A stretch of 64,000 bases of DNA from Sulfobacillus thermosulfidooxidans DSM 9293 (GTDB lineage: Bacteria; Bacillota; Sulfobacillia; Sulfobacillales; Sulfobacillaceae), in assembly GCF_900176145.1 (NCBI RefSeq), contig NZ_FWWY01000001.1, forward strand, positions 1,597,819 through 1,661,818, read 5' to 3'. Under the pieces are notes generated by a model. The model was given only the letters and a program-made list of their open reading frames with translations, was not told where the DNA came from and ran no database searches. Shown in pieces: positions 4,101-39,335 of this stretch. How positions within the stretch are numbered: position 1 is the first letter of the stretch; each line of letters starts with the position of its first letter. Both the position numbers and the translations under genes were made by a program.

Positions 4101-5423
4101 ATGAAATCAGGAATTCGAATCGCTGTCATTGGCGGGGGCAGCTCTTATACCCCGGAACTCATTTCTGGTCTTCTTGATGTCGACGATTTAGCGATTGAGC
4201 AAGTGACGTTGGTCGACATTCCCGAAGGTCGCGACAAGATGGAAATAATCCGGGCGTTTTGTCAGCGGCTTATCGATCATAGCAATAAAAAGTTTATTCT
4301 TCAAGCAACATGTAACCGCCATCAGGCACTAGCTGATGCCGACTTTGTGTTGAGCCAATTTCGGGTTGGGGGATTAAATGCCCGGGCCCGTGATGAAAGT
4401 ATCCCGCTCAAATATGGTGTGATCGGCCAGGAAACCGTGGGCGCTGGCGGTTTTGCCAGTGCTCTTAGGACGATTCCGGTGGCACTGGAATTGGCTCGGG
4501 AACTCGAAGAGCTTAATCCTGCGGCATGGTTAATTAATTTTACGAATCCTTCGGGGATGATCACCGAAGCCTTATTACGCTATCAAGGGATCCGGACCAT
4601 CGGCCTTTGCAATGTTCCCATTACCATTGAAAGAACGATTGCTGAAGCCCTTCATGTGTCGCCAGACGTTATTAGTATAGATTTTTTGGGGCTCAATCAC
4701 TTGTCCTTTGCCCGCCATGTCTATGTACAAGGGAAAGATATTACCCCGTTGGTTTTAGAGTTTTTAAAAAACATGTCTCAAGAGGCGGTTAAAAATTCCG
4801 TGGCCAATATTCCCAAGGAAACCTGGGCTCCTTATCTATTGGACGCTGTGCCCATGATTCCCAATCCCTACCTGCAGTACTATTGGAATACGGATGTGAT
4901 GTTGAGAAAACAGCTGGCAGATATAGAAAATGGGAAAGGAACCCGGGCCATTCAAGTGATGGCTATTGAAGCGGAATTGTTTAAACAATATCAAAATCCC
5001 CAGCAAGTCACATTGCCCGAGTTGTTAATGCAGCGAGGGGGAGCCTACTATAGCACGGTTGCGGTCATGTTAATGGAATCATTGGCTCTCAATAAACGGC
5101 GCGAAATGGTTGTTAATGTCAAAAATGATCAGGCACTGGACGTGTTACCGGCTGATAGTGTTGTTGAGGTCCCGGCGGTTATTGATGGGCGCGGGGCGCG
5201 TGCGATCACCATGGAGCCTGTACCTTTGGAAGTGAAAGGACTGATCCAGCAAGTGAAAGCTTATGAACAATTGACAATTGAAGCGGCTGTAGAAGGTCAC
5301 CGGGGAAAGGCTTTGGCCGCTTTATTGACCAATCCTTTAGTGCCTTCGAGTGAGATTGCCCACAAAATCTTGGACGATATTTTGCGGGAGAATGCGGCGT
5401 ATTTGCCGCAATTTGCCTCATGA
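4101..5423 (+). CDS. 6-phospho-beta-glucosidase-type enzyme, glycoside hydrolase family 4
   Basis: GH4 enzymes hydrolyse 6-phosphorylated glycosides in the cytosol by an NAD+- and Mn2+-dependent redox-elimination route. The N-terminal dinucleotide-binding motif is IAVIGGGSSYTPEL. The metal-binding Cys170 lies in TIGLCNVPI and His200 in LGLNHLSF, at the positions usual for the family, and NFTNPSGMITEA is another signature. The length of 440 residues is typical. The start chosen is ATG at 4101, where the protein begins directly with the family N-terminus. A GTG at 4035 would add 22 atypical residues and cannot be excluded, since neither start has a strong ribosome site. It overlaps the next gene, a sugar kinase, by ATGA, so the two are translationally coupled. 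Substrate preference (beta-glucosides versus others) is inferred from the GLCNVP form of the Cys motif. Confidence 0.87.
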   Translation: MKSGIRIAVIGGGSSYTPELISGLLDVDDLAIEQVTLVDIPEGRDKMEIIRAFCQRLIDHSNKKFILQATCNRHQALADADFVLSQFRVGGLNARARDESIPLKYGVIGQETVGAGGFASALRTIPVALELARELEELNPAAWLINFTNPSGMITEALLRYQGIRTIGLCNVPITIERTIAEALHVSPDVISIDFLGLNHLSFARHVYVQGKDITPLVLEFLKNMSQEAVKNSVANIPKETWAPYLLDAVPMIPNPYLQYYWNTDVMLRKQLADIENGKGTRAIQVMAIEAELFKQYQNPQQVTLPELLMQRGGAYYSTVAVMLMESLALNKRREMVVNVKNDQALDVLPADSVVEVPAVIDGRGARAITMEPVPLEVKGLIQQVKAYEQLTIEAAVEGHRGKALAALLTNPLVPSSEIAHKILDDILRENAAYLPQFAS

Positions 5424-6388
5424 CATTATATATTGGAGTCGATGGGGGTGCGAGTAAAACGGATGTCGTCTTAGCCCAAGACGGCAAACTCCTTAACATT
5501 GTGCACGGAGGGCCATCCAATCCTCAAGGGCCCTTAGGACTCGAGGGCGCAATGGATCAACTCGCTCAAAGTCTTTCCTTGGTCATCCAAGGATATGATC
5601 CGAAGGACGTCAAAGGAGCCGTTTTGGGATTAGCCGGCGCAGATTTTCCTGAAGACATTGCCGCGATGTCTGAACAAATAACGCACTTGTTGCCCTGGTT
5701 ATCTTATACCATTGTCAATGATACCGAAATTGCCTTGCTGGGAGGATCGCGTCAAGGTTATGGGATTGCTGTGATTTGTGGGACCTCTACCAATGTTCTG
5801 GGCATACATCCAAATGGCCAGCGCTGTCAAATTGGTGGATTAGGCTATGAGATGGGGGACTTTGGTGGGGGAGCCGATTTGGCCCGCGAAGTTCTTCATG
5901 TCGCCTTTCGCAGTCACGAAGGGCGCGGGCCAAAAACCATTTTGGAAGACGCTGTGTTGCGTAAACTGGGTCAGAACAGTTATGAAGACTTAAAACGCGC
6001 GATGTATTTTCACACCATTCACCCTTTTGCGTTTTTAGCTTTGGTTCCTGCATGCTTTGAGGCCGCGAATCAAAATGATCATGTGGCGATAGACCTGTTG
6101 CAAAGCATGGCGCAATCCCTGGCCCAAACAGTGATCGCCGCTGCCAATCAATTAAGTTGGCATAATGATCCCTTTGAAGTCATATTAGTCGGATCCTTAT
6201 GGGAAGGCGTCTCACCGGTTTTGCAAAATCATTTTCGGGAACTCGTCCACGCGCAATTTCCGCTTAGTGATATTCATTTACCCCTCTTACCACCCGTTCT
6301 GGGCGCCTTACTCCAGGCGGCTCAATTGGGGGGAGAGCTAGTTGATGAATGGCGGTCGAAGCTTATTCCCCAGGCGCAGCACATTTAA
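5420..6388 (+). CDS. BadF/BadG-type sugar kinase (N-acetylglucosamine kinase-like)
   Basis: A 322-residue ATPase of the BadF/BadG/BcrA/BcrD (NagK) fold. The phosphate-binding loop YIGVDGGASKTDVVLA is at residues 4-19, the second phosphate loop is VICGTSTNVLG, and GGLGYEMGDFGGGADLAREVL is the conserved region before the C-terminal lobe. Family members phosphorylate N-acetylglucosamine or related sugars at O6. The gene begins inside the stop of the GH4 gene (ATGA overlap), so kinase and 6-phospho-glycosidase are made together. The simplest reading is that the kinase makes the phosphorylated sugar or glycoside that the GH4 enzyme uses, replacing a PTS step. Its stop is one base away from the stop of the convergent antiporter gene. 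Confidence 0.8.
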   Translation: MTLYIGVDGGASKTDVVLAQDGKLLNIVHGGPSNPQGPLGLEGAMDQLAQSLSLVIQGYDPKDVKGAVLGLAGADFPEDIAAMSEQITHLLPWLSYTIVNDTEIALLGGSRQGYGIAVICGTSTNVLGIHPNGQRCQIGGLGYEMGDFGGGADLAREVLHVAFRSHEGRGPKTILEDAVLRKLGQNSYEDLKRAMYFHTIHPFAFLALVPACFEAANQNDHVAIDLLQSMAQSLAQTVIAAANQLSWHNDPFEVILVGSLWEGVSPVLQNHFRELVHAQFPLSDIHLPLLPPVLGALLQAAQLGGELVDEWRSKLIPQAQHI

Positions 6389-6389
6389 T

Positions 6390-8162
6390 TTAAAAGGGCG
6401 GCGGAACTTCAAATATTTGCCGGATTTCTCTGCGCCTGGGTCCAGGACACACAATGGTAATCACATCGCCCGCGCGAAGCACAGTGGAACCCCGGGGAAT
6501 TAAATGTTCCCGGTGGCGTGATATGCCAATAACGAGGGTATCTTCAGGGAGTTTTAAATCTTTAAGAGCGACATTAATGGCATAGGGACTCGTCACTTCC
6601 AATTCCATCATGGAGGACCACATGTTAGCGTCGGATAGCCCTGATAACGGGGAACGGATGAGGGTTTCCAATAGCTGCATAGAAGCTAGTGGAGCGACAA
6701 AAGGGATTAAACCCGCAGCATTAGCTTGTTCCCGGGCTTCGGTGGGCACATCCACAATGACATGATCGGGGTTTAAAATATGCTGCAACTGATTGCCCCA
6801 AATAATATTCTTTTGCCAGTGGGCGGAGCCCAATAACGCGACCACGCGCACAGTTCCCGCATGAATCGCCGCGCTTGCTAAGGCGTCTGAGCCATTGTCA
6901 TAGGTTAAGACAGGATAGTCTTGGGCAGCTAAATGACTGGCAATGGGCTTGACCCAGTGAGCAGGGCCAATGAGCATAATATCTTGCTTCGGCAAAGGTT
7001 TTTGAGGACTGAACCGGTGAAAAATGGGTGGAAACAGGACGGCGGACAAAATTGAGGTGATAATCATCGCCAGATATACGGATTGCGAGATAATATGCGC
7101 CTGAAACAGAATTAAGGAACCTGCCACCGTTACAGATAAGCGGGTGGCTAATAAGGTCGCCATGGCAATGGTTTCTCTTTTTGGAAATAAGCGCGCCAAA
7201 AGAAAGGAAATGCCGATACTTATGACGATAATGCCGAGAAGGAAAGACACAGTAAGCAAAAGAACGTGATTGGATTGCCAAGCCGGGTGAAGATTGAGAT
7301 CGCTTCCGACGGTCACAAAGAAAAAGGGAATGAAGTAGCCAAACCCTAAGGCATCCAGTTTATCTTGGAGAATCTCACGATCTTTGCCGACGATTAAGGA
7401 TACCACGACCCCCGCCAGGAATGCTCCCAACACGGTGATGGTTCCCAAGGTTTCCGCTAGGGCAATAAAGAGGGTAATAATCATCATCACGCCCCGGACC
7501 CCAATTTGACTGGTGACCGTATCTTGACCGTTGCCAAACCATGCACGGTGCAAAAATCTTGATGTGGATTTGGCGATAACCAGAGGCACAAACATTAACA
7601 CGACCAAAAAGATGCGCAAGATGGCACCATGGTGATCTAAAGCGGCCAATGCGGTGACGCCCATTAATGTGGTGAAATCGACGAGTAACCCGATGGACAA
7701 AATCCATTGTCCAAAATTGGTGTTGACGAGCCCCCGTTCTTTTAACGTGGGTAACAAGACGGTAGGAGCACTGGATGCCAGCAGCAAGGAAATCGGGATC
7801 ATTTTGTGAATCACATGAAACGTTAGCAGAAGATAACCTTCAGCAAAACCTAATCCAATCCACAGGACAATAATGGGCCAAAGCCAGCGAGCATGTTGAA
7901 GTTTGGCATGATCCTGATTGAGCCATGAATCCAGGTTGGTTTCCAAGCCATACAAAAACATAATATAAGACAGGCCAAATAGTGACAAAAAACTAATAGG
8001 CCCAGAAATTTGAATCCAACCTAGTCCACTTTTACCGAACACGACGCCTAATAGAATTTCCGCCGCGGCAATGGGAATTTTGACTTTGGTGCGCAATAAA
8101 ATCCACGGCGCCATTAAGGCGACAATGGAAACTACAAGAATTGAGAGAATGACGTTTGACAT
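6390..8162 (-). CDS. Kef-type cation:proton antiporter (CPA2) with TrkA-C domain
   Basis: A membrane protein of about 590 residues. The N-terminal 380 residues hold about 12 membrane segments of the Na+/H+ exchanger fold, including GVVFGKSGLGWI near the start and TITVLGAFLAGVVVSLIVG. A cytosolic part follows: a Rossmann-like segment (IMLIGPAHWVKPIASHL), then a TrkA-C-like domain at the C-terminus (PRGSTVLRAGDVITIVCPG) that in relatives senses nucleotides or ions. Such proteins exchange K+ or Na+ for protons. The start is uncertain: ATG at 8162 has GGAGG only 3 bases upstream, while a TTG at 8174 would place that site inside the gene. It is convergent with the sugar kinase gene and divergent from the lipoprotein gene at 8315. 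Confidence 0.82.
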   Translation of the reverse strand: MSNVILSILVVSIVALMAPWILLRTKVKIPIAAAEILLGVVFGKSGLGWIQISGPISFLSLFGLSYIMFLYGLETNLDSWLNQDHAKLQHARWLWPIIVLWIGLGFAEGYLLLTFHVIHKMIPISLLLASSAPTVLLPTLKERGLVNTNFGQWILSIGLLVDFTTLMGVTALAALDHHGAILRIFLVVLMFVPLVIAKSTSRFLHRAWFGNGQDTVTSQIGVRGVMMIITLFIALAETLGTITVLGAFLAGVVVSLIVGKDREILQDKLDALGFGYFIPFFFVTVGSDLNLHPAWQSNHVLLLTVSFLLGIIVISIGISFLLARLFPKRETIAMATLLATRLSVTVAGSLILFQAHIISQSVYLAMIITSILSAVLFPPIFHRFSPQKPLPKQDIMLIGPAHWVKPIASHLAAQDYPVLTYDNGSDALASAAIHAGTVRVVALLGSAHWQKNIIWGNQLQHILNPDHVIVDVPTEAREQANAAGLIPFVAPLASMQLLETLIRSPLSGLSDANMWSSMMELEVTSPYAINVALKDLKLPEDTLVIGISRHREHLIPRGSTVLRAGDVITIVCPGPRRREIRQIFEVPPPF

Positions 8163-30085: not shown

Positions 30086-30679
30086 ATGAGTTACATCAAA
30101 CGTCTTTTTGATATCATGGTTTCGCTCATTTTGCTGGTTGTTTTCAGCTGGCTTTTGGTACTCATTGCCCTGGTCATTCGCCTGGATTCGCCAGGACCAG
30201 CACTGTTTGTACAAACTCGCATTGGTAAAGATGGACGACCATTTCGTATGTGGAAATTTCGCACCATGTATTATGGAGCCGAGAAAAAATGGCAACCGCC
30301 GGCTCCTGAAGAAGCACTACGTTATAAATTTCAAGATGAAGGGGATAGGCGTATTACCAAAATGGGACGATTTCTGCGCCGGTCCTCCCTCGACGAATTG
30401 CCCCAACTTTTCAATGTCTTGGTGGGGCAGATGTCCCTGGTCGGTCCACGGCCAGAAATTCCAGAAATGGTGGCATTATATCCCTCTTATGCTCATGAAC
30501 GACACCGTATGCGTCCTGGCATAACGGGACTGGCCCAGGTCATGGGCCGGGGAGATTTAACGCTCGAAGAAAGCTTAAAGTGGGATTTGGATTACTGTAC
30601 ACATTGGACAATCTGGCTCGATTTGGTCATTTTATGGAAAACGATAACGTCGGTATTGCGCCGGAAAGGCGCATATTAA
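30086..30679 (+). CDS. Small monotopic phosphoglycosyl transferase (PglC-like)
   Basis: A 197-residue bacterial sugar transferase domain. One N-terminal hydrophobic helix (IMVSLILLVVFSWLLVLIAL) is followed by FRMWKFRTMYYGAEKK, RITKMGRFLRRSSLDELPQL and MSLVGPRPEIPEMV. In this family the Asp-Glu of SSLDELPQ is catalytic and forms a covalent phospho-sugar intermediate. It moves a phospho-sugar from a UDP sugar onto undecaprenyl phosphate to begin a glycan. Its position after a dehydratase/aminotransferase set suggests a bacillosamine-like or diacetamido sugar as substrate. It is the last gene of the operon; no strong terminator is seen before the next gene at 30765. Confidence 0.9.
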   Translation: MSYIKRLFDIMVSLILLVVFSWLLVLIALVIRLDSPGPALFVQTRIGKDGRPFRMWKFRTMYYGAEKKWQPPAPEEALRYKFQDEGDRRITKMGRFLRRSSLDELPQLFNVLVGQMSLVGPRPEIPEMVALYPSYAHERHRMRPGITGLAQVMGRGDLTLEESLKWDLDYCTHWTIWLDLVILWKTITSVLRRKGAY

Positions 30680-30764
30680 AAAATATAGAGGAATTTTGGC
30701 ACTTTATAGCGAATAAAGTCTATAAACAACATGACGTGTGTAAACATGGTCGGATGGAGAAAGG

Positions 30765-31910
30765 ATGAGCGATGTGGGGCGCCCCCGAGCCACATCAAGC
30801 CCTTCATGGTCAGTGATGACCTTGTCGGAAGTCACAGGATTACCCGTTTCTGTTATTTGGTCCGATTTGCAAAATGGGATCTTGTCGGGAACAACGATCC
30901 AGGGTAAAACCATCATTCGCTTGGAAGATCTCATGGCATCTAAGCGGGATTCCTACCGGTTAGTTGCAGAAAATCTGGGCAACACATCTAGGAAGGAACC
31001 AAAAGATGAAGATGATGGGCCTATCCTAACGGTTCGTCCTCCCTTGTCCACTTCATGGAAAGCCGCTCACAGTGCGGTATACCGAGGTGAAACGATTAAG
31101 GTCTCCCTATACGATGTTTTACGCCGCGATCGGCTCTTGTCGCATATAACAGCCCCCTCATTGTCTCCTGGAGTCATTGCCTTAAGTGGGTTTGCGGGCC
31201 AAAAAGGAACCCGTCCGGTTTATGTCATTGGTCCTCAAGCTCGTCTTGATCAGGAGTTAATTTCCTTGCGGCTGTTGCCGCAAATTGTTTCAGCCTACCC
31301 GGTCGCGTTGCAAGCGGCCAAGCGCATCCTATGGCAACTGCAAGAGAGCCCCAATCATTTCAGTGACGTTCTCGCGCAATTAATTTTAGACTACGGGACG
31401 AAGATGATGGTCTCCCGAGTTGATGAGGCGTGGCACTACTATAAAAATCCTAGTGCTGCCCCCGAGTCTTTTTGGGTTTATCGGCAAGATGGGAGCTTGC
31501 GCACGGTGGGCGGCATCTTTTTCACCCTGATTAAGTCCCAAGGTTATTGGCGCCCGGAAAAAGGGAGTGGATCCTCCGGCGCCGTGTTTCGGGGTGACGT
31601 GTTGCCTATCTCGTCAAAAATTGTTCGGTGGGAGAGCCGAGCGAAGATTGATGCTCGGCCGATGAAAGACATCGAGACCGATGTGGCTATCGATCAAATC
31701 TATATCCCTAAAGCCTTTGAACTGCATCCCCCACGCGCAGATAAAATAGAAAAGGCACGCAATCAACCTGAGAAACCAGCCCCATTGTTGGTGAAGCAAT
31801 GGGATTCTGGTCATGAAGGGCGCCCAGCTTATGTGTTACTCGATGGATATGTTCGCTATCTGGTTGCCAAAGAAAAACAGGTGACGATGGTACCTGTTCG
31901 CATTATTTAA
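30765..31910 (+). CDS. Unrecognised three-part nucleic-acid-binding protein (HTH + PHAX-like + ParB-like)
   Basis: A 381-residue protein with no signal peptide or membrane segment. Three regions can be seen. Residues 15-56 (VMTLSEVTGLPVSVIWSDL onward) look like an excisionase/MerR-type helix-turn-helix. Residues about 185-258 end in QDGSLRTVGGIFFTLIKSQG, which closely follows the pattern of the PHAX RNA-binding domain (D-G-S-x-R-T-x-G-G-x-F-F-x-L-L-K). Residues about 308-381 (IDQIYIPKAFEL, then AYVLLDGYVRYLVAKEKQ and VPVRII) resemble a ParB/sulfiredoxin-like fold in which DG-x(2)-R is conserved. Function is unknown; binding of RNA and possibly DNA is inference from the patterns. GGAG is 5 bases before ATG 30765. 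It is 85 bases after the glycan operon and 30 bases before the chromate transporter gene. Confidence 0.65.
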   Translation: MSDVGRPRATSSPSWSVMTLSEVTGLPVSVIWSDLQNGILSGTTIQGKTIIRLEDLMASKRDSYRLVAENLGNTSRKEPKDEDDGPILTVRPPLSTSWKAAHSAVYRGETIKVSLYDVLRRDRLLSHITAPSLSPGVIALSGFAGQKGTRPVYVIGPQARLDQELISLRLLPQIVSAYPVALQAAKRILWQLQESPNHFSDVLAQLILDYGTKMMVSRVDEAWHYYKNPSAAPESFWVYRQDGSLRTVGGIFFTLIKSQGYWRPEKGSGSSGAVFRGDVLPISSKIVRWESRAKIDARPMKDIETDVAIDQIYIPKAFELHPPRADKIEKARNQPEKPAPLLVKQWDSGHEGRPAYVLLDGYVRYLVAKEKQVTMVPVRII

Positions 31911-31940: not shown

Positions 31941-32474
31941 GTGGGCAAGTGGGTGCAGTTATTTTGGGGATTCTTTAAAGTCGGCATTTTGGGCTATGGA
32001 GGCGGTCCCGGATCCATTTCCTTGATTCAGGCCATCTCGGTGAACGGATATCACTGGATGGACAACACGCAGTTTGCGGAAATGCTCGCTATTGGCAATG
32101 CCCTGCCAGGACCTATTGCTACAAAGTTGGCAGCGGCCATCGGATGGCAAGTCGGTGGCGTCATGGGAGCCCTTAGCGCGCTCATCGGAGTGGTTTTACC
32201 CTCTTTGGTCTTAATGTTGGGATTATATCAAGTTCTTTTAGCGCACAAGTCTAATCCCTACGTGATTGGACTCATTCGCGGGGTCAAACCGATTGTGATT
32301 GTGTTATTGGTATTACTGATTCTCGACTTAATTCCGGGCACCTTTCCCGCTCACCGCTACGTGATTCCTCTGGTGATCTTTATTCTCGGACTGGTGGCCA
32401 TCAAAGAACTGAAAATTTCTCCGGTTTTGGTCATTATTGGCTCGATGATTACCGGTGCTCTTTTTCTCCGCTGA
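31941..32474 (+). CDS. chrA: Single-domain chromate transporter (short CHR family)
   Basis: A 177-residue membrane protein covering one CHR domain: FKVGILGYGGGPGSISLIQ, then AEMLAIGNALPGPIATKLAA and GGVMGALSALIGVVLPSLVL, with about six membrane segments. The family exports chromate, and some members may move other anions. Short CHR proteins usually occur as adjacent pairs that form a heterodimer; no second copy is present in the window, so this one would need to be a homodimer or have a distant partner. GTG 31941 has an ideal AGGAGG 7 bases upstream. It may be cotranscribed with the preceding gene (30-base gap). Confidence 0.85.
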   Translation: MGKWVQLFWGFFKVGILGYGGGPGSISLIQAISVNGYHWMDNTQFAEMLAIGNALPGPIATKLAAAIGWQVGGVMGALSALIGVVLPSLVLMLGLYQVLLAHKSNPYVIGLIRGVKPIVIVLLVLLILDLIPGTFPAHRYVIPLVIFILGLVAIKELKISPVLVIIGSMITGALFLR

Positions 32475-34984: not shown

Positions 34985-35002
34985 ATGAACGGAGGGATGA
35001 CC

Positions 35003-36043
35003 ATGGATCTCTATGACCACAAAGGCGAACTGGATCGCCAATGGTATTTAAGGAAACTGAGTCAAGCGATTAAGGCAAAATTGCCCGAACTGATTACGCA
35101 AGAAGCCGTGATGGGGAGTGCGCCAGATCAACGCATTCGCGTCGCGGTTCGGAAATTGGAAGAACCTGATTTTCGTTACCAACCTCAGGGTTCCGCCGGA
35201 CAAGGCAATGGTCTTGGACCCGGTCAAGAGGGTGGTGACGATGTGGTCTGGATTGAATTGACCACGGAAGAAATCATGGATTTGCTGCTTGAGGATTTAA
35301 AACTCCCCCGATTAGACGATAAGCCACGCGGTGTGTTACATGGGGAAGAAGATCGCTATGATGACGTCTCAACACACGGGCCGTGGTCCAATATCGATAA
35401 ACGGCGGAGCCTCTATCAAGCGGCCAAGCAAGGCCGCGATTATTTAACCCAGGATGATTTACGTTACCGAAGTTGGCGTACCTATCCCAAACCCGTAACA
35501 GCCGCGGTGATTACGCTCGTCCGTGATGCCTCAGGCTCTATGGACGAATCTAAACGTTATCTTTCGAAATCGGCCGCGTGGTGGCTCGTTCAATGGATTC
35601 GCCGTCAGTACCGTTACGCAGAAATTCGGTATTTCTTGCACACAACCGTGCCGGTAGAAGTGGATGAAAAAGACTTTTTCAACCGAGAAATTACTGGGGG
35701 CACCGCGATTTTATCGACCTATCAAACGATTTTGCAATTGTGGGATCATGATTTTCCTCACGAGGATTGGAATCGGTATTTATTACATTTTTCCGACGGT
35801 GATATTTGGTCAGATTACGGCCGGGAACTCATAGAAATTATTCAGACCCTGTTATCCACGTCATCGTTGTTGGGATATTTCGAAGTGGAAGGACACAAAG
35901 GCGTATCGCCCCTGTGGTCTTTGTTCCGCAAAAGCGCGGAACTCGGCGGTCATTTTCATCCAGCCATGCGGATGGCCAAGATTGATAGCAAGGAGCATAT
36001 TCTTCCCGCGATTCGTGCTGTCATAGATGGCCATGGCAGCTAA
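35003..36043 (+). CDS. yeaH: YeaH/YhbH-family protein (DUF444, VWA-like)
   Basis: A 346-residue cytosolic protein. An acidic and basic N-terminal half includes DQRIRVAVRKLEEPDFRY and a Gly-rich linker, and VWIELTTEEIMDLLLEDLKL precedes the VWA-like domain, whose MIDAS-type motif is VRDASGSMDESKR; FSDGDIWSDYGRELI is later. Family members are cotranscribed with the PrkA/YeaG kinase in enterobacteria and spore formers and take part in stress or sporulation responses by a mechanism still unclear. ATG 35003 has GGAGGG 6 bases upstream; the longer frame from 34985 contains that site and is rejected. First gene of the operon. Confidence 0.88.
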   Translation: MDLYDHKGELDRQWYLRKLSQAIKAKLPELITQEAVMGSAPDQRIRVAVRKLEEPDFRYQPQGSAGQGNGLGPGQEGGDDVVWIELTTEEIMDLLLEDLKLPRLDDKPRGVLHGEEDRYDDVSTHGPWSNIDKRRSLYQAAKQGRDYLTQDDLRYRSWRTYPKPVTAAVITLVRDASGSMDESKRYLSKSAAWWLVQWIRRQYRYAEIRYFLHTTVPVEVDEKDFFNREITGGTAILSTYQTILQLWDHDFPHEDWNRYLLHFSDGDIWSDYGRELIEIIQTLLSTSSLLGYFEVEGHKGVSPLWSLFRKSAELGGHFHPAMRMAKIDSKEHILPAIRAVIDGHGS

Positions 36044-36082
36044 CAGCAAGTTTTTGGTGTCAAGGACCTGGAGGTGATAACA

Positions 36083-37432
36083 ATGGTCCACGGAACGTTA
36101 GACGACTGGGTCAAAGAGATGGATGAGTTAGTGCGTGCTCATGGACTCACTCCTCTGCCGACCGAATTTCACCTCGTTTCCGATGAAGATATTTATACTT
36201 TATCCTCCTACTTTGCTCCAGGAAGATATCGTCACTGGACACATGGAGAACGGTATTGGATGGCCAAACAACGGGATGAGCAAGGGCTTGGGAGGATCTA
36301 TGAGCTTGTGGTCAATGGCGACCCGGCCTTAGCCTACTTGTTGGATAAGAACGCGGATGCTTATAACGTACTTGTCATAGGCCATGTGTTAGGGCACACC
36401 GATTTTTTTGCTCGCAATCAATTTCTTAGTGCCGTGCGCCGACCCAATATCGGGATGTGGTTTCGCGAACATGCTGAGTGGTTGGAGGATCTTCACCGCC
36501 AACGCAGCTTTTCCCGCGTGGAAAAGCTCATTGATGCCGCGCATACCCTGTATCAATTGGTTGACCCATATTACCGAGCACCAGATTTTGTTCGTATTCC
36601 CGATAAAGACAAAAGTAAAGGCCAACAACGATCCTTTGATTGGGTGAAAGAGCTGTACGAACCCAAAGCCCTCGACCACGATGATGACGTGAGTTATGTG
36701 CCGGCGTATAAAATCTGGCCTTATACTCAGGATGTTTTGGCACTGGTCGCAGATTTTGGCCATTTGGCCGACGAAGAACGTATGGCTTTACGCATGTTGC
36801 GGGAGGAAATGCTGTACTTTCAGCCACAAGCGCGGACGAAGTTCATGAATGAAGGATGGGCCACATTTTGGCATGTTCGCCTAACTCGGGAATTTTCGCA
36901 GTGGGACGCTCAAGATCATATTGAAGCGATGCGCATGCATGCTCTGGTCACGCAAAGCCGCAATTTCTTTAATCCGTATTACTTTGGATGGACCTTATGG
37001 GAGCTTATTAACGAACTTCATGGACTCGATACGTGCTTTCAGATTGTTGCGGAACAAACGGATTTGCAGTGGATCAATCAGTGGATCACGCCAGAGTTGG
37101 TTCGCTTAGCACAAGACAAAAATTTGTGGCCTTTAGAACGTCCGATTGATGCGCAAGACCCAAACAAGGGAACAGAATATTATCCGGTTGAGGATTTGAT
37201 GCGCGATGTCCAGCGGGTTTTTCTTCCCGATACTCCCGAAATATTTGTGGAGCAAATTGATGCCCAAAGCCATCGGCTGGACTTGATATACCATGGTGAC
37301 AAACCCCTGCACAAAGATTACACCCAGGATGTGTTGAATGCGATTGCTTACTTGTGGGGTGGAGATGTGATGCTGACCAGTGCGCACAAAATCTGGTATG
37401 GCAATGAAGCCGATTGGAGAAGGAGGGCTTAA
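36083..37432 (+). CDS. spoVR: SpoVR-family protein
   Basis: A 449-residue protein of the SpoVR/YcgB family. Recognisable stretches are EFHLVSDEDIYTLSSYFAPG, RYRHWTHGERYWM, NADAYNVLVIGHVLGHTDFF, MNEGWATFWHVRL and NPYYFGWTLWELI. In Bacillus subtilis SpoVR is needed for normal spore cortex formation, and its biochemical activity is unknown. His/Glu-rich conserved motifs such as HVLGHTDFF and NEGWATFWH look metalloprotein-like (inference). ATG 36083 has GGAGG 8 bases upstream. It is 39 bases after yeaH and one base before prkA. Confidence 0.92.
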   Translation: MVHGTLDDWVKEMDELVRAHGLTPLPTEFHLVSDEDIYTLSSYFAPGRYRHWTHGERYWMAKQRDEQGLGRIYELVVNGDPALAYLLDKNADAYNVLVIGHVLGHTDFFARNQFLSAVRRPNIGMWFREHAEWLEDLHRQRSFSRVEKLIDAAHTLYQLVDPYYRAPDFVRIPDKDKSKGQQRSFDWVKELYEPKALDHDDDVSYVPAYKIWPYTQDVLALVADFGHLADEERMALRMLREEMLYFQPQARTKFMNEGWATFWHVRLTREFSQWDAQDHIEAMRMHALVTQSRNFFNPYYFGWTLWELINELHGLDTCFQIVAEQTDLQWINQWITPELVRLAQDKNLWPLERPIDAQDPNKGTEYYPVEDLMRDVQRVFLPDTPEIFVEQIDAQSHRLDLIYHGDKPLHKDYTQDVLNAIAYLWGGDVMLTSAHKIWYGNEADWRRRA

Positions 37433-37433
37433 T

Positions 37434-39335
37434 ATGGCACGATTTGATACAGATTGGTTAACCAAACATCAACCCCCTCAGGGGGCATGGACATGGGAAG
37501 GCACGTTTGCGGATTACCTGATCAAGGTGCAACAAACACCGTCCATCGCCGATTTGGCCCATGCCCGCATCTACCGGATGATTATGTCGCACGGTGTTGA
37601 AAAGCTTGAGGGACAAGAAGTGCCCCGTTATAAATTCTTTAGCCAAGACATTTTCGGTATTGATGACACCATCAATGAAATCGTCGAGTACTTTTCCGCT
37701 GCGGCACGTGGAATGGACATTAGACGCCGGATTTTGTTAATGATGGGGAGTCCTGGCACGGGAAAATCAACCATCACAGCAATTTTAAAAAAGGGGTTGG
37801 AAGAATACTCCCGAACTGATGAGGGGGCCCTTTATGCGATTAGTTTTTGTCCCCAACAAGAAGAACCATTACATTTATTGCCGGAGGCGGCACGCCGAGA
37901 ATTTATGCAAGAAACGGGGGTGACAATTGAAGGCGATCTATGTCCTTATTGCCAGTGGATGATTGATCATGAATATCAAGGACGCTTACAAGAAGTGCCC
38001 GTCAAACGCGTCTTAATTTCCGAATCGCGCCGAATTGGCATTGGCACTTTTGCTCCTTCGGATAGTAAGGTGCAGGACATTAGCGAACTCGTGGGCTCGA
38101 TGGATCTCTCGACGATTTCACGCTACGGTTCGGAATCTGATCCTCGCGCGTACCGATTTGATGGTGCGTTCAATGCTGCTAACCGGGGGATTATGGAGTT
38201 TATTGAAATGTTAAAAGCCCAACCAGATTTTCTGCACGGGTTGTTAACATTGGCCCAAGAGCGCAAGATTAAAGTGGGACGTTTTGGCTTGTTTGATGCC
38301 GATGAAGCCATTATTGCCCATACCAATGAAAATGAATTTGAACGCTTCGTCAGCAACAAGGCGTATGAAGCGTTGCATAACCGGGTCCTCTTAATTAAAG
38401 TGCCGTATAACCTGACCGTCAGTCAAGAAATTCGGACTTATCAAAAGATGATGAACCTGGGGGGACAAAAACTCGGCAAGCATATTGCACCGAATACGCT
38501 CAAAGTGGCAGCCATGTTTGGTGTCGGTACCAGACTCGCCCGAGATGCCAAGTTTTCCATCAAGGAAAAGCTTACATTATATGATGGCAAAGAGTTACCC
38601 GATGTGCAGCAAAGGGAAATCAACCGCGTTCGGGAACTTGCCCGTAAGCAAGGTGAAGGATTTCAAGGTATTTCGCCGCGTCATATTCTCGATGCCTTGT
38701 CTTATGCCATGGCGAGTGACAAAGAGCCTTGCGTCACCCCAACGGCTATGTTGCGGGCGATTCGGGAAAGCTTTGAGCAGCATATTACCCAGGTCAAAAA
38801 CCAAGACCTGTTGGAATCGCTCAAAGCTACTCATGAATTGTATGACGAAGCAGCCAAGAATGAGATTCAAAGGGCCTTTGTCGATTCGTTTCAAGATGCT
38901 GCGCAGTTATTGTATGACAACTATTTGGAACATGCTGAAGCTCGTATCATGCATTCAACGGTCAAAGACCCGGTTACGGGGGAAGAAGTCGAACCCAACG
39001 AAAAAATACTTCAAGATCTCGAGAAGGCCCTGGGTATTAGTGATGCCGCGGCTACAGCATTTCGCCAAGAAATGGTGAATAAGGCAGGAGCTATGGCCCG
39101 AAGAGGACAATCGCTCAGTTGGGATTCCCATCCCAAAATGAAGGAGGCCATTGAAAAGAAATTATTTGCCGACGTAGCCAACCTTGTCAAAGTCACGACG
39201 TCTACGAAGGTGTTAAACGATCAGCAAAAGAACCGGGTCATGGAGGTTAAGCGCCGGTTAATTGATGATATGGGATATTGCGAACATTGTGCTCAAGAGC
39301 TATTGGATTATGTTGGCTATTTGTTGACCAAATAA
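37434..39335 (+). CDS. prkA: PrkA-family AAA+ serine protein kinase
   Basis: A 633-residue protein, close to the usual family length. An AAA-like N-terminal domain has Walker A MGSPGTGKSTITA and a Walker-B-like region near VKRVLISESRRIG. The family-specific CPYCQWM segment and the C-terminal kinase-like domain follow (for example ISPRHILDALSYAMASDKEP). PrkA is reported as a serine kinase or AAA+ protease-like regulator acting in sporulation and stress. ATG 37434 has AAGGAGG; a longer frame from 37380 overlaps spoVR and is rejected. It is the last gene of the operon. No classic terminator sits right after the stop, but a hairpin lies 55 bases downstream. Confidence 0.93.
   Translation: MARFDTDWLTKHQPPQGAWTWEGTFADYLIKVQQTPSIADLAHARIYRMIMSHGVEKLEGQEVPRYKFFSQDIFGIDDTINEIVEYFSAAARGMDIRRRILLMMGSPGTGKSTITAILKKGLEEYSRTDEGALYAISFCPQQEEPLHLLPEAARREFMQETGVTIEGDLCPYCQWMIDHEYQGRLQEVPVKRVLISESRRIGIGTFAPSDSKVQDISELVGSMDLSTISRYGSESDPRAYRFDGAFNAANRGIMEFIEMLKAQPDFLHGLLTLAQERKIKVGRFGLFDADEAIIAHTNENEFERFVSNKAYEALHNRVLLIKVPYNLTVSQEIRTYQKMMNLGGQKLGKHIAPNTLKVAAMFGVGTRLARDAKFSIKEKLTLYDGKELPDVQQREINRVRELARKQGEGFQGISPRHILDALSYAMASDKEPCVTPTAMLRAIRESFEQHITQVKNQDLLESLKATHELYDEAAKNEIQRAFVDSFQDAAQLLYDNYLEHAEARIMHSTVKDPVTGEEVEPNEKILQDLEKALGISDAAATAFRQEMVNKAGAMARRGQSLSWDSHPKMKEAIEKKLFADVANLVKVTTSTKVLNDQQKNRVMEVKRRLIDDMGYCEHCAQELLDYVGYLLTK

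Follow-up and report, generated by a model that had tools for sequence, protein, structure and literature searches.

What does a chromosomal gene of Sulfobacillus thermosulfidooxidans DSM 9293 encode, if its product appears to combine an RNA-binding domain of the eukaryotic PHAX type with a module of the ParB/sulfiredoxin (Srx) fold? The gene lies in the window analysed here (the whole stretch of 64,000 nucleotides from contig NZ_FWWY01000001.1), and a first-pass annotation made from the sequence alone had described its product as a three-part protein with helix-turn-helix (HTH), PHAX-like and ParB-like parts. The open frame is present as described, and comparison of the window gene with its nearest copy, the 90% identical orthologue, gives a dN/dS of 0.09; this is a real coding gene under purifying selection. 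The PHAX-type middle and the ParB/Srx C-terminus withstood further analysis while the HTH did not find comparable support, and the order of parts in the protein is HTH-like part, conserved segment, PHAX-type domain, linker and ParB/Srx fold (Table 1).

Table 1. Location of the focal gene, its protein parts and its immediate neighbours in the window.
Feature	Residues	Position	Strand	Basis
Upstream neighbour, bacterial sugar transferase, last of glycan operon		30086..30679	+	Pfam Bac_transf E 2.8e-69
Putative Shine-Dalgarno GGAG		30756..30759	+	5 nt upstream of ATG, read from sequence
Focal gene		30765..31910	+	Open frame, 381 aa
Putative winged HTH, excisionase/HTH_17 type	15–58	30807..30938	+	Weak hhalign match
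Conserved segment of unassigned fold	73–165	30981..31259	+	Invariant runs in alignment
Divergent PHAX-type RNA-binding domain (very probable)	184–262	31314..31550	+	Profile, profile-profile and predicted-model matches
PHAX signature QDGSLRTVGGIFFTLIK	241–257	31485..31535	+	Pfam PHAX model positions 49–72
ParB/sulfiredoxin-fold module	302–381	31668..31907	+	Model, structural matches, profile link
GYVR at GxxR phosphate-binding (Box II / P) motif position	361–364	31845..31856	+	Conservation
Downstream neighbour, single-domain chromate transporter		31941..32474	+	Pfam Chromate_transp E 1.8e-39; 30 bp past stop codon

For the window protein, PHAX_RNA-bd (PF10258) is the sole Pfam family listed at E-values of up to 10. 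It matches all five Sulfobacillus orthologues (best E 1.4e-4 across 24,736 families; 0.023 for the window copy) with scores under the curated 25-bit cut-off (15.1 bits for the window copy and 22.2 bits for the best orthologue) and with a signal that spans only about 23 residues. The pattern that had been picked out in the middle of the protein is indeed that of PHAX, S/D-x-R-x-T-x-GG-x-F-x-x-L, and its RT-GG-FF-L-K positions are invariant in the five orthologues (R246, T247, G249, G250, F252, F253, L255 and K257). An independent PHAX profile, built from the Herpetosiphon protein Haur_5073, proteins of the viral contigs L062 and L061/L063 and the human and Cryptosporidium PDB rows, recovers the human PHAX RNA-binding domain with an E-value of 7.6e-25, and when run over six-frame translations of the Sulfobacillus genomes it placed the focal orthologue at the top in all five that have the gene (E 6.5e-6, 2.8e-5, 0.004, 0.016 and 0.037), with the match in genome G003 covering positions 5–78 of 84. 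Across 154 genomes of the class no locus but the focal one reached 0.01. When compared with true PHAX domains by hhalign, the focal domain scored 47.1 over 71 columns against a maximum of 19.0 for column-shuffled decoys (n = 200). Taken by itself, the first half of this domain (about residues 184–228) scored 12.2, within the range of its own shuffles (mean 9.2, top score 15.4), and strong sequence support is confined to the domain's C-terminal half.

We modelled residues 166–275 in isolation using the orthologues only and no PHAX rows (a MAFFT alignment that also took in viral PHAX rows proved unstable over the first helices and was left out of the modelling). The predicted model (pLDDT 54) has helices, a hairpin and a helix in PHAX order, and amongst 350,542 PDB chains, of which only a handful are PHAX, both Foldseek and VIA ranked the Cryptosporidium PHAX-type RNA-binding domain 2w4s first, although with low absolute scores (Z 4.6, Foldseek E 2.4); human PHAX (2xc7) was also among the matches listed. 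Like the PF10258 domains of these two structures, the focal protein has the RTxGGxFFxLxK signature and, in the predicted model, a helix-helix-hairpin-helix order, and it can be aligned with the LQE and G-EA positions of the helices. It differs from them in that a longer loop stands in place of the GG turn ahead of the signature, only SLRT is left of the arginine run in the window copy (two orthologues have RRRT) and the score falls below the Pfam threshold, and it differs from human PHAX in having none of the N-terminal export regions. We consider it very probable that residues of about 184–262 are a divergent PHAX domain.

The C-terminus, where YVLLDGYVRYLVAKE and VPVRII are located, had been likened to the ParB/sulfiredoxin fold, and this likeness held. 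An AF2 model produced with four orthologues was confident only at residues 302–381 (pLDDT mostly 70–88, and under about 65 elsewhere), and the top 32 consecutive rows returned by VIA were all ParB/sulfiredoxin-fold proteins, with a plant sulfiredoxin as the best match (Z 10.9, 73 residues, 1.6 A) followed by Noc and ParB (Z 10.6), and with unrelated rows at a Z of about 5. The focal C-terminus is also linked by hhalign (E 9e-13) to the C-termini of Sulfobacillus-family ParB_N proteins (L006–L010); two of the three of these relatives' C-termini tested against Pfam ParB_N were over the cut-off with the third just below, and a profile of the relatives matches Noc structures at 1.5e-6. As the AF2 model, the VIA matches and the profile link through these relatives agree, residues 302–381 have the ParB/sulfiredoxin fold. 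The focal module shares this fold and the GxxR P motif (as defined in PMC12704722) with the ParB-CTPase family of ParB, Noc, PadC, SbnI, SerK and sulfiredoxin, and G361 and R364 are invariant in the five orthologues (G361-Y-x-R364).

In contrast to this family, the focal protein ends right after the module and the ParB HTH, Box III and dimerisation domain are therefore absent; with neither an HTH nor a dimerisation domain after the fold, and no parA among the genes read, it is not a canonical ParB. In ParB it is this module that binds nucleotide, DNA binding being the task of another part, and the ParB-CTPase fold is known to gate DNA clamps. The link between RNA and DNA binding that the first-pass annotation drew from the combination of parts is thus not upheld, given the missing ParB domains and the weakness of the N-terminal HTH. 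In alignments with the relatives, Box I is short by about four residues, and the focal protein has GYxR in place of GERR, so nucleotide binding may be lost. NTP binding by the module is nonetheless possible, and the nucleotide choice of a ParB-CTPase fold is described as unpredictable from sequence in PMC12704722. The position of the catalytic glutamate of SbnI/SerK (E20/E30) is K317 here and varies between K, A, R and V in the orthologues, unlike SbnI itself, and an SbnI-like free serine kinase was ruled out as the catalytic residue is missing.

The two parts ahead of the PHAX-type domain are less easily assigned. Residues 15–58 align in register with HTH_17 domains over 38 columns in a statistically weak hhalign comparison (P = 0.023; row 5 of our alignment A12 is a hand-written HTH_17-like consensus), and searches for this HTH gave no Pfam match and no PDB match, which makes the putative excisionase-type winged HTH suggestive only. 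The segment at residues 73–165 carries long invariant runs (APSLSPGIIALSGFxG and RPVFVIGP) and has no PDB sequence match, and beyond the genus a search of 398 genomes of the phylum found no relatives of it other than two marginal matches. The possibility that this segment is a KITLTG domain, of the kind described below, was rejected (hhalign E 0.28).

Full-length copies of the gene occur in five of the eight Sulfobacillus genomes, including that of the window, with the four other orthologues 90, 59, 56 and 55% identical to the window copy along their entire length (the 59% identical orthologue is from S. benefaciens AMDSBA1). They retain the same order of parts, and in all carriers the gene has a glycan operon upstream, as first noted for the window, and chromate transporter, DUF444 and SpoVR genes downstream. 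With the PHAX-type and ParB/Srx parts matched and the order and neighbours kept, the condition under which the first-pass annotation would have been discarded does not apply. The sugar transferase is the upstream neighbour in all four loci compared, and the gap to the chromate transporter gene is 27–39 bp in four orthologous loci. In the non-carriers G007 and G005 the sugar transferase gene is followed directly by that of the chromate transporter, at distances of 103 and 152 bp and with no remnant in between, and this clean absence means that the focal gene is gained or lost whole, at a single position; the eighth genome, G002, is 61% complete and uninformative on presence or absence. The focal gene has a GC content similar to that of surrounding genes, and there is therefore no sign of very recent import. 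The protein diverges faster than its neighbours (55–59% against mostly 64–95% identity), and only Sulfobacillus orthologues were found as homologues in the genome contigs, viral contigs, plasmids and phages searched. Profile matches outside the gene in G005:C94, G407 and G399 were attributed to chance, with stops or only half of the model covered, and so was a match in G020 (L032) which runs antisense to an open frame of 508 aa whose sequence is GntR/aminotransferase-like. The focal gene is thus restricted to the genus and conserved, and is a new combination of two known modules and one unassigned domain.

We note that G007, which lacks the focal gene, has an apparent decayed ParB-like module (L111:6011-6172) in which the frame is broken by a stop. 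In the window, the DUF444 and SpoVR genes and the 651-aa open frame after them (34985–39335) are among the most conserved of the neighbourhood, and the latter is possibly a PrkA kinase.

Unambiguous PHAX domains were found outside of eukaryotes in Herpetosiphon Haur_5073 (L052; E 6e-13) and in L062 (E 4e-16), a 70-kb virus-like contig, and further ones lie in proteins of the viral contigs L061 and L063. The first-pass annotation had known such domains in bacteria as short proteins, which is contradicted by the 331-aa Haur_5073 and by the L062 protein, in which PHAX is fused to a domain of ~95 residues (VKITLIGRP...PKGLP). This second domain is homologous (hhalign E 2.4e-5) to the one with which the Sulfobacillus-family KITLTG-ParB_N proteins begin; judged by eye it resembles an SSB-like OB fold. 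Haur_5073 too seems by eye to carry a KITLTG domain, but this proved unsupported. The KITLTG domain follows PHAX in L062 and precedes ParB_N in the Sulfobacillus and Priestia proteins, including the ‘plasmid stabilization proteins’ of Priestia plasmids (169 Priestia records match). As PHAX and ParB_N share this partner in separate proteins, a direct PHAX–ParB fusion is less surprising, and the shared partner favours a common setting for the two, in the handling of plasmid- or phage-type nucleic acids.

The focal protein can be set against both groups. The bacterial and phage PHAX proteins (Haur_5073, L061, L062 and L063) have the same domain, over most of its length in their case, but at the N-terminus and followed in L062 by the KITLTG-type domain, whereas the focal PHAX domain is preceded by the HTH-like part and followed by the ParB fold. 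The KITLTG-ParB_N proteins (those of Priestia plasmids, L006–L010 and phrog_36163) have a homologous C-terminal ParB/Srx module with DGYxRY, to which the focal module is closest among the proteins found, but they begin with the KITLTG domain where the focal protein has HTH-like, unassigned and PHAX parts, and they have a longer Box I and GYRR in place of GYxR.

Several of these genes have neighbours of their own to note. The L062 PHAX–KITLTG gene (4953–5756) is followed 445 bp later by one for a Ro60 protein with TROVE and vWA domains (6202–7812), with primase-like and AAA genes close by; PHAX and Ro60 are RNA-binding proteins otherwise known from eukaryotic RNPs, and no Rfam match to a Y RNA was found near the Ro60 gene. 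Haur_5073 (L052:2878-3873, on Herpetosiphon pHAU01) is annotated as hypothetical and lies near WYL regulators and a CRISPR-associated Cst1 gene. In G005 (L109:1702-4377 and 5560-6222) a KITLTG-ParB_N gene that has lost the ParB part is separated by about 1.2 kb from an apparent CRISPR array, visible as repeated FNPLPTAYCRET / VSIHSRQLTAGR translations. The KITLTG-ParB_N family occurs on about 170 Priestia plasmids with several copies per strain, and on the one plasmid read for gene position (Priestia megaterium NZ_CP071468.1, L124:4001-4789) the ‘plasmid stabilization protein’ lies directly 3' of the replication gene.

How might such a protein work? Our preferred reading, quite possible but short of probable, is that a divergent PHAX-type RNA-binding domain and an orphan-type ParB/Srx module act in one polypeptide as a nucleotide-responsive RNA-binding regulator. 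The PHAX part would bind single-stranded RNA, and the ParB/Srx part would bind an NTP, or serve as a rigid partner-binding module, and thereby tune RNA binding or oligomerisation, while the N-terminal part may contact DNA or a protein partner. The protein would then probably regulate a small set of transcripts, plausibly among them the one that it would share with the chromate transporter gene; the short gap between the two genes in all loci compared is the reason for proposing this. A stricter form, in which the ParB-CTPase fold controls the PHAX-type domain as a nucleotide-gated RNA-binding switch in one chromosomal bacterial protein, we regard as unlikely.

Alternatively, the protein may be a domesticated DNA-associated factor of the plasmid-maintenance kind, with the HTH on DNA, the ParB-like module on an NTP and the PHAX-type domain on single-stranded DNA or structural. 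The Priestia plasmid gene next to the replication gene encodes one of the nearest C-terminal relatives, the focal N-terminus fits HTH_17 in register, and the phage-like L062 contig has its primase-like and AAA genes, but the focal gene is chromosomal and at a fixed site in all carriers with no par or rep gene nearby, the HTH is statistically weak, and PHAX is known for RNA in eukaryotes; we find this somewhat unlikely. That the protein is an orphan ParB-like transcriptional regulator whose PHAX likeness is a chance or convergent short motif would be in keeping with the shortness of the Pfam signal and the loss of the GG hallmark. This is decidedly unlikely, however, as the signature is the best PHAX match in every gene-bearing genome, all five orthologues match the Pfam family, the isolated model finds PHAX first in the PDB, and the helices and hairpin are in PHAX order. 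Least likely of all is a role as an accessory to anti-phage defence or RNA repair, sensing RNA quality or damage, despite the Ro60/TROVE protein after the L062 PHAX protein, the Cst1 and WYL genes near Haur_5073 and the KITLTG-ParB_N gene near an apparent CRISPR array, since no genome has such neighbours of the focal gene, there was no PADLOC match, and two isolated examples are insufficient as an association.

PMC3032688 describes PHAX as an innovation of animals that serves snRNA export, and no bacterial PHAX protein or fusion was found in the literature searched, which has few subscription journals. A 2025 survey devoted to fusions of the ParB-CTPase fold (PMC12704722) names HTH, HNH, UPF0020, DUF3850, CBS, ASCH and MT-A70 as partners, of which ASCH, the PUA-like DUF3850 and MT-A70 are RNA-related, and its main text makes no mention of PHAX. 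The combination of PHAX and ParB/Srx in one protein looks both real and new. The true PHAX domains of bacteria and viruses, together with the divergent focal one, show that the domain is far more widespread than snRNA export, and a compact protein with both modules offers a direct test of whether this NTP-binding fold can regulate RNA binding. The nucleotide-gated switch, if true, would extend NTP-switching by the ParB-CTPase fold from DNA to RNA.
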